This document shows positions 1,542 to 2,756 of a stretch of 64,000 nucleotides of DNA, piece by piece; position 1 is the first letter of the stretch; the number at the start of each line of letters is the position of its first letter. The stretch lies in assembly GCF_003315205.1 (NCBI RefSeq), contig NZ_QNRR01000004.1, positions 310,001 through 374,000 on the forward strand, given 5' to 3'. Source of the DNA: Roseimicrobium gellanilyticum. Lineage in GTDB: Bacteria > Verrucomicrobiota > Verrucomicrobiia > Verrucomicrobiales > Verrucomicrobiaceae. The position numbers and the translations under genes were made by a program. The notes beneath the pieces were generated by a model. That model searched no databases. It saw nothing but the letters and a program-made list of their open reading frames with translations, and was not told the origin of the DNA.

Positions 1542-2558
1542 TTACTTCTTCAGAGGCACGCTCCAGAGGTGATTGCCGGAAGTGATGTAGAGGGTCCTGC
1601 CGTCATGGCCGCCAAAGGCGCAGTTGGTGGCTTCATCGGGAGCGGTGGGCACGAAGTCGAGGAGTTTGCCGAAGGGCGAGAGGATGTAGCAGCCCGCTTT
1701 GAATTCATTGGTCTCGTAAGGGTTGGCCTTGTTCACACCAGCGGCGACGTAGAGGCGGCCCACGGCATCCATCTTCACACCATCGGGGCCGCGGCTGTTC
1801 TTCCAGTCAAAGATGAGGATGCGGCTGCCGGGGCGCACAGAGCCATCCGGCTTGAGGTCGAAGCGCCACAGCTTCCGTGCGCCGCCGTGCGTGTTGTTGT
1901 TGTTATCCGCGACGTAGAGGTAGTGGTCATCATACGAAACGAGGATGCCGTTGGGGCGCTCCACGTCATCGGGACCGAGAATGCGGGTGACCTTCCCGGG
2001 AGCGTCCACGCGATACACACCCTCCACGAGACGTCCTTTGGAGTCGCGCATCTCCATGGTGCTGCGGTCGCCGTAGCGTGGGTCGGTGAAGTAGATGCGG
2101 CCCTTCGAGTCCGTGGTGACATCGTTGGGTGCGTTGAAGCGATGGCCTTCGTAGCGGTCGGCGAGGACGGTGACCTTTGGGTTTGAGTTCAAGTTCGCAG
2201 AGCCTGTACAACCTGTCCCAGTGAACCCCAATGTCGTGACTTTACCTTCATGGCGTACAAGGCGTCGTCCTTTGGATTCACAGGCAATGAGATAACCGTT
2301 CGTGTCGAAAAGGAGCCCGTTGGGGGAACCACAGTTGCTGCGAAAGACCGATGTCTTCCCCGTCTTCGTATCAAACCGGTTGATGTGCGAGCCATCTGTG
2401 AAGTAGAGCGAGCCTTCCTTCCATGCCGGTCCTTCGCCGGCGCCAATCTTCCCGTGGTCATGGGCTTTGGCATTGGGGGCGAGGGGAGAGGTGGTACCGG
2501 CGCAGGAGGCGAGCACCGCGGCGAGGGCGGGAAGCAGGAGGTGGGTGGGCAGACGCAT
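1542..2558 (-). CDS. SMP-30/gluconolactonase/LRE-type lipoprotein
   Basis: The protein is 338 residues. It starts with a lipoprotein signal (LLLPALAAVLASCAG; Cys at ~19). The rest is a six-bladed beta-propeller of the SMP-30 type, with the hallmark stretches GEGPAWKEGSLYFTD, CGSPNGLLFD, RFNAPNDVTTDSKGRIYFTD and ERPNGILVSYDDHYLYVADN. The metal-binding residues expected for the family (Glu in GEGPAW, Asn in NAPNDV, Asp in the SRGPDGVKMD blade) are all present, so an active lactonase or esterase is plausible, but the substrate is unknown. An odd 20-residue segment (about residues 109-128, FTGTGCTGSANLNSNP) separates two KVT triplets where related proteins usually run straight from the blade strand into VLADRYEG; see findings. 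Confidence 0.85.
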   Translation of the reverse strand: MRLPTHLLLPALAAVLASCAGTTSPLAPNAKAHDHGKIGAGEGPAWKEGSLYFTDGSHINRFDTKTGKTSVFRSNCGSPNGLLFDTNGYLIACESKGRRLVRHEGKVTTLGFTGTGCTGSANLNSNPKVTVLADRYEGHRFNAPNDVTTDSKGRIYFTDPRYGDRSTMEMRDSKGRLVEGVYRVDAPGKVTRILGPDDVERPNGILVSYDDHYLYVADNNNNTHGGARKLWRFDLKPDGSVRPGSRILIFDWKNSRGPDGVKMDAVGRLYVAAGVNKANPYETNEFKAGCYILSPFGKLLDFVPTAPDEATNCAFGGHDGRTLYITSGNHLWSVPLKK

Positions 2559-2615: not shown

Positions 2616-2756
2616 CAACGTAGCTCGCGAGTCCCTTCGCGAGGTTTTTTCAGGGCTCCTATACATCGGGTGATAGGTAGCCTCCTCCGTAAAGCGGCGG
2701 TCTAAGGGAATGGAGCGTCTTAAGGAAACTCGCGAAGGGACTCGCGAGCTACGTTG
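2616..2756. repeat. Palindromic repeat element with perfect 28-bp inverted arms
   Basis: The arms lie at 2616-2643 and 2729-2756 and are perfect reverse complements; each contains the core CTCGCGAG plus a nearby CGCGAAGGG. Pairing continues imperfectly inward, leaving an interior of about 85 bp. The right arm ends 2 bp from the stop codon of the upstream minus-strand gene at 2758. A related half-copy (GCTCGCGAGCTACG) lies at 48466-48481, also directly after a stop codon. This looks like a REP/MITE-type element that also forms a transcript 3' hairpin. No transposase or RAYT gene is in the window. Confidence 0.8.

Follow-up and report, generated by a model that had tools for sequence, protein, structure and literature searches.

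A REPIN with a candidate cognate RAYT in Roseimicrobium gellanilyticum, conserved at the same site in a sister species

The perfect inverted repeat beside a haem c gene in the window (the whole 64,000-nt stretch of Roseimicrobium gellanilyticum DNA analysed here) is very probably (roughly 0.9) an old REPIN, in which a 27-nt REP is used twice with the heads facing outwards, which was spread in trans by a RAYT and is now inherited in place. We report the REP family to which it belongs, the repeated unit, the pairing and orientation of its copies, a RAYT gene with the REP on both sides, the conservation of the element in the sister species, and its placement relative to stop codons. Elements of this kind are already well known, and this family with its identifiable RAYT is an added example. 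The host presumably belongs to the same phylum as O. terrae, the Verrucomicrobia. We call its own genome G000 (7.93 Mb, 32 contigs) and the only same-genus genome among the 57 that we compared G001. The features around the element are the following:

2616..2643, + strand: left REP, made of CAAC, the GTAG head (2620-2623), stem CTCGCGA (2624-2630), loop GTCCCT (2631-2636) and stem TCGCGAG (2637-2643), with unit boundaries taken from 93 copies
2644..2728, no strand: REPIN interior of 85 nt, without alignment to the orthologous G001 element; other copies match the arms and at most ~15 nt past them
2729..2756, - strand: right REP, the same unit as the left REP on the opposite strand; its head (2749-2752) faces the haem c stop codon
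2758..4074, - strand: haem c gene, 438 aa, with a CFSCH motif (haem c type); stop codon TAG at 2758-2760; G001 ortholog at L125:1733-3043
1542..2558, - strand: adjoining gene, 338 aa, starting 57 nt past the left arm; this neighbour is also conserved in G001

The two 28-nt arms are exact reverse complements spaced by 85 nt, as the first-pass annotation described, and each includes the self-complementary CTCGCGAG that it had pointed out. When extended, the pairing of the arms reaches 38 nt at 89%. The adjacency to the haem c stop codon stood as well, with a single base (2757) between the right arm and the stop codon instead of the 2 bp originally given. The element folds at -50.6 kcal/mol as single-stranded DNA (z -9.6) and at -77.0 as gene-strand RNA (z -10.4), energies equalled by 0/200 shuffles in each case, and this fold is carried by the arms. 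Rfam covariance models gave 0 matches to positions 2500-2860 up to E 1. A 16-mer scan with looser settings, restricted to the window (at most 3 mismatches), found just the two arms, both exact, which by itself is not above shuffles (2 vs a mean of 0.70, with as many in 17/100).

The repeated unit is the arm and not the 141-bp element that had been proposed as such. A BLAST search of 161 nt against G000 gave 112 matches and, the query aside, each spans an arm and at most ~15 nt beyond it. Since the non-self matches hardly extend past the arm, the repeated unit is a 24-27 nt REP with a GTAG head that the element uses twice. The 27-mer CTCGCGAAGGGACTCGCGAGCTACGTT has 57 copies in G000 at 3 mismatches or fewer, 37 of them exact, and its reversed control has 0, which makes a match by chance untenable. 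Hence, the element is neither present once nor without kin in relatives, the outcome against which the first-pass annotation had staked its reading. The consensus of the unit is (C)AAC-GTAG-CTCGCGA-GTCCCT-TCGCGAG, and its edges are sharp. Across 93 of the 94 copies from the two genomes (one copy with 5 mismatches was left out), each base of AAC has a frequency of 98% and the preceding C of 74%, the head has frequencies of 100 (G), 97 (T), 98 (A) and 89% (G), and the stem and loop columns range from 89 to 100% (98-100% in the loop alone). The bases flanking the unit drop to 28-74%, and past the 3' foot all 16 positions are at or below 45%. The unit has the character of a REP, a palindrome of 20-40 nt in many extragenic copies (57), and the GTAG at the foot of its stem-loop is that of the GTAG-type REPs, which carry GTAG or GTGG there. 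None of the 63 REP groups (40 in G000, 23 in G001) lies wholly within a predicted gene.

The stem covaries in a few copies. Among the 94 copies (29 distinct units), pair 9-18 changes from G-C to C-G in 3 copies and pair 5-22 from T-A to C-G in 4. Counting against the REPIN reading, 16 of the 658 stem cells (94 copies, 7 pairs) hold combinations other than standard or G-T pairs. At L093/L147 and L100/L150 there is a sub-variant in which one stem pair is swapped (CTCGCCA...TGGCGAG); at L093 the change is on one side of the pair only. A loose pattern for diverged copies gave 494 matches vs 653 in its reversed control, and is therefore uninformative on such copies.

The REP family is found mainly in one genus. 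At 1 mismatch or fewer, the 24-mer occurs in three of the 57 genomes: G000 (53 copies), G001 (26), and G014, from the same family (2). Across the class, 384 genomes were sampled evenly from a larger group, and among these it occurs in G000 and G175 (4 copies, one variant). In the two genomes from outside the genus, G014 and G175, the sequence is present at one mismatch. A named genome collection holds an exact REP in one 3.7-kb MAG contig labelled Flavihumibacter (L084:375-398), which we set aside because the contig may be mis-assembled or mis-binned. The window itself carries, at 1509-1532 on the - strand, a copy of a different REP, GTGGTCCGCCCACTCCGTGTGCGG (2 mismatches of 24), 9 nt past the stop end of the gene at 1542-2558; this other REP flanks RAYTs at L071 (G000) and L122 (G001).

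We put REP copies less than 400 nt apart into one group. The 40 groups of G000 comprise 17 with two members, one with three and 22 single copies, and 9 of the 23 groups of G001 have two members. All 26 two-member groups (17 in G000 and 9 in G001, some of them orthologous and hence non-independent) are oriented heads-out. Two inverted REPs in one hairpin, the arrangement that defines REPINs, are therefore found in 26/26 pairs by orientation and in the window copy by its folds. Many copies, paired and single alike, are 0-1 mismatches from the consensus. As described for Pseudomonas fluorescens SBW25 (Bertels and Rainey 2011, PMC3116915), the REPs form inverted pairs whose spacer is less conserved and which fold together into a single long hairpin, they are linked to a RAYT, and singlets occur too. 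They differ from the SBW25 REPINs of that account in numbering dozens, not hundreds, of copies and in having little common interior. Single copies (22/40 groups in G000), commoner here than in Pseudomonas, where 18% of the SBW25 REPs are reported as singlets (PMC3116915), count against our reading.

The genome also encodes a candidate transposase for this REP, as the first-pass annotation had anticipated in proposing a REP-type repeat with a RAYT. It had rightly seen no transposase beside the element; the cognate gene sits elsewhere in G000:

G000:C2:161252-161989 (= L020:688-1425, protein P0001): RAYT gene, 245 aa, uninterrupted

Two REP sequences flank this gene. Ahead of its start codon, at a distance of 76 nt, is a full REP (L020:1502-1525), and at its 3' end a half REP of 14 nt (L020:676-689) overlaps the stop codon; the two are part of an inverted repeat of 25 nt (96%). 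Such an arrangement, in which a genome-dispersed REP stands on both sides of a RAYT gene, is that of a REPtron. We assign the protein to the REP transposases despite scores under the cut-offs (60 bits, E 2.3e-16, to NCBIfam REP_Tyr_transpos, NF047646, cut-off 80; 15.4 bits to Pfam Y1_Tnp, cut-off 23), and its activity is predicted from these similarities and its motifs. It had no sequence match to solved structures at E 0.1. H137, H139 and Y212 are invariant across 9 aligned proteins and the HUH motif reads PNHAH, with Y212 as what we take to be the catalytic Tyr. The protein has the HUH motif and Tyr of a Y1 HUH transposase and falls outside the IS200 core group. Around residues 171-185, in the segment that separates the HUH motif from the Tyr motif, it has an additional stretch of ~15 residues that is absent from the eight other aligned proteins. 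Its closest relatives (52-54% identical) are in G005, G019 and G003, those of G019 and G003 each with one in-frame TGA. Clear stem-loop repeats with GTAG or GTAC heads lie beside the relatives in G005 and G003, and only short ones in G019.

An orphan REP family without a transposase was a candidate explanation that we dropped. A search with Pfam Y1_Tnp (PF01797) had returned 13 loci in G000, 17 in G001 and 4 in G014, none of which (34) has the window REP in its 1.5-kb flanks at 5 mismatches of 24 or fewer. The RAYT, beside C2:162066, was missed by that search and was found by tblastn of the retrieved proteins against the REP loci. Y1/RAYT genes are numerous in each genome (13 and the Pfam-missed one in G000; 17 in G001), and many of the loci L061-L073 (G000) and L104, L106, L108, L110 and L112-L124 (G001) have another REP or inverted repeat on both sides. 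The Y1/RAYT loci of both genomes are thus rich material for the co-evolution of RAYTs and REPs. Downstream of an IS200-like gene, L064:2081-2388 holds a long array of 7-bp repeats (ACTGACC, ACTGACT and GACTACC types).

The unit and its RAYT resemble the GTAG-tagged REPs and REPtrons described by Di Nocera et al. (2013, PMC3733652), which have GTAG at one end of the stem-loop and a RAYT flanked by REPs, and are located chiefly downstream of genes, in co-directional as well as convergent intervals. GTAG repeats were reported there from Verrucomicrobia (O. terrae). The unit differs from those GTAG REPs in its conserved AAC ahead of GTAG, and the sequence of the AAC-GTAG unit was not found in the available text of PMC3733652. 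The E. coli TnpA-REP and its REPs, in the parts of PMC8266576 and PMC6006769 that cover them, share with our system an HUH/Tyr protein and a GTAG head, and the group 3 REPs also a stem-loop without a bulge. Compared with E. coli TnpA-REP, the RAYT described here is distant (the 60 bits to NF047646 given above).

The element is older than its perfect arms suggest. G001 has the same REPIN after the haem c ortholog, with GTAG 5 nt past the stop codon as in the window. Both arms (2/2) are identical between the species, and the interiors (70 nt in G001 vs 85 nt) cannot be aligned. At four-fold sites, the two flanking genes differ between window and G001 by 34.3% (198 sites) and 34.4% (160 sites), and simple arithmetic puts the chance of 54 identical arm nt under such drift at ~2e-10. 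The arms are identical in G001 despite this divergence, so their perfection reflects conservation or homogenisation and not youth. The recent spread that the first-pass annotation had read from them does not hold for the window copy. Two independent insertions at one site in both species are unlikely.

Other copies are shared as well. Comparing the REP loci of G000 and G001 (41 vs 21), we found 17 with an apparent partner in the same place; at a few of them, e.g., L087 and L100, one of the two flanks is absent or has been rebuilt. Leaving out L090/L139, where the flank alignment is ambiguous, 10 of the 24 comparable arms in 16 partnered pairs are identical, with differences at 29 of 648 positions (4.5%). 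These figures are biased to conserved copies, as a pair could be counted only if the REP was recognised on both sides. Eight G000 loci (C2:38-195 kb) compared with four G001 stretches had no partner at or next to the aligned positions at 5 mismatches or fewer, and at L099 the aligned G001 sequence shares just 14/24 bases with the REP unit (by eye). We found no empty site of the window copy. Of the eight G000 copies compared with G001, five were examined closely and gave no clean pre-insertion junction, the sequences being too diverged or rebuilt, and neither a target preference nor a target duplication could be read from these junctions.

The sister species lacks a close RAYT relative. The genes that flank the RAYT can be aligned in G001 up to points 40 bp apart, with no RAYT between them, and this gap is occupied by a stem-loop from another family that has GTAG at each foot. 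No G001 protein exceeds 45% identity to the RAYT, and the two best matches adjoin other repeats. G001 thus keeps 26 REP copies without a close RAYT relative, and RAYT-driven mobility there is putative. A REP cluster is apparent on its 7.96-Mb chromosome, where C1 ~4.40-4.86 Mb holds 11 of the 23 REP loci within 500 kb (random maximum of 9 in 5,000 trials). The GC skew, coarse at 20 stretches, changes sign at 3.4-3.8 Mb, and the cluster is therefore not exactly at the inferred terminus.

The suggestion that distances to stop codons were worth counting proved a good one, as REP copies cluster near stops. Genes were predicted with a simple codon-usage caller trained on the window, so that the stop distances are approximate. 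We used 36 of the 40 G000 groups, omitting three sites between divergent genes and one at a contig edge; the placement counts also omit a variant unit with 4 mismatches, present in three copies at L102 and L103. In G000, 15 of the 36 sites start within 7 nt of a stop codon, compared with 6.0 expected for uniform placement in their own gaps, and none of 20,000 random placements reaches 15 (the largest being 14). Over both genomes, 29 of the 54 groups with a stop-facing neighbour are within 15 nt of the stop. Between co-directional genes in G000 (n=23), 19 sites are closer to the stop, 3 closer to the start and 1 tied. Single REPs within 60 nt of a stop turn their head towards it in 12 of 13 cases. 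The term 'stop codon' has 0 occurrences in the available text of PMC3116915, which does not treat stop proximity under that term. In E. coli, REPs closer than 16 nt to a stop codon can reduce translation (Liang et al. 2015, as cited in PMC12306157); the window hairpin, which starts a few nt after the stop, shares this position. At L005:1783-1786 and L014:1522-1525, the TAG within the GTAG head appears to double as the stop codon predicted for the neighbouring gene.

TnpA-REP proteins bind and cut single-stranded REPs, with GTAG involved, and are thought to mobilise REPINs (PMC3116915, PMC8266576, PMC6006769 and PMC3733652, in the parts that cover them). By analogy, the RAYT, as an HUH single-strand transposase, would act on single-stranded DNA by recognising the GTAG head together with the stem-loop, and would have copied REP pairs in trans to new places. 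The window copy would have landed before the two species split and have been inherited vertically since, its arms being kept by selection or sequence homogenisation and its interior drifting. The haem c mRNA, if it runs on, would carry a very stable hairpin directly after the stop codon. This might make the mRNA upstream of it more stable or delay termination, as reported for E. coli REPs at most 15 nt from the stop, which would give the REPIN a function for the host.

Such a function could be all that matters today: the element may be a host RNA element, a post-stop hairpin kept for stabilising or down-regulating the haem c mRNA, whose mobile origin is now irrelevant. We consider this a serious contender, if on balance not the probable one. 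It would account for identical arms at the same site and in the same orientation in two species 34% apart at four-fold sites, for the 29/54 groups within 15 nt of a stop, for the stem covariation, and for the persistence of the family in G001 without a close RAYT relative. However, the arms match copies beside unrelated genes, and homogenisation or recognition by a transposase explains their identity too. Conservation of the loop and of the AACGTAG head is close to that of the stem, which fits recognition of DNA by a protein more readily than it fits a simple RNA hairpin. In the G001 sequence aligned to L099, only 14 of the 24 REP bases are retained. A bolder version extends to the whole family, which would have been taken over as a gene-end device tuning translation termination or mRNA decay, hence the letter-for-letter retention of pairs across species. 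RAYT insertion or later selection would set the GTAG hairpin a few nt past stops with its head stopward, the head itself would seem to serve as stop codon at two loci, and pairs would be retained even where no close transposase relative remains. We hold this to be tentative and rather unlikely.

It is very improbable that the element is the intrinsic transcription terminator of the haem c gene. There is a stable hairpin after the stop and one terminator-like match (2624-2653), but this match is on the + strand, opposing both flanking genes (-), and the gene strand gave none. The T run is not preserved in G001, and the transcribed strand lacks the hairpin with T run of an intrinsic terminator. 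A recently inserted miniature transposon that carries terminal repeats of its own (a MITE, moved by a DDE transposase) would explain perfect terminal inverted repeats around a short interior, but this reading has next to no chance of being correct: there is no obvious target duplication beside the arms (by eye), the interior varies between copies, the arm is also found singly and is itself a GTAG stem-loop, the element is common to the sister species, which contradicts a recent insertion of the window copy, and the REP-flanked gene is a Y1/HUH transposase.

The reading as an old REPIN accounts for the conspicuous perfect inverted repeat in the window and provides a clear REPIN-RAYT pair from beyond the well-studied gamma-proteobacteria. 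Two species that share many REP sites, one with and one without the cognate RAYT, could make it possible to separate upkeep of REPINs by the host from upkeep by the transposase.
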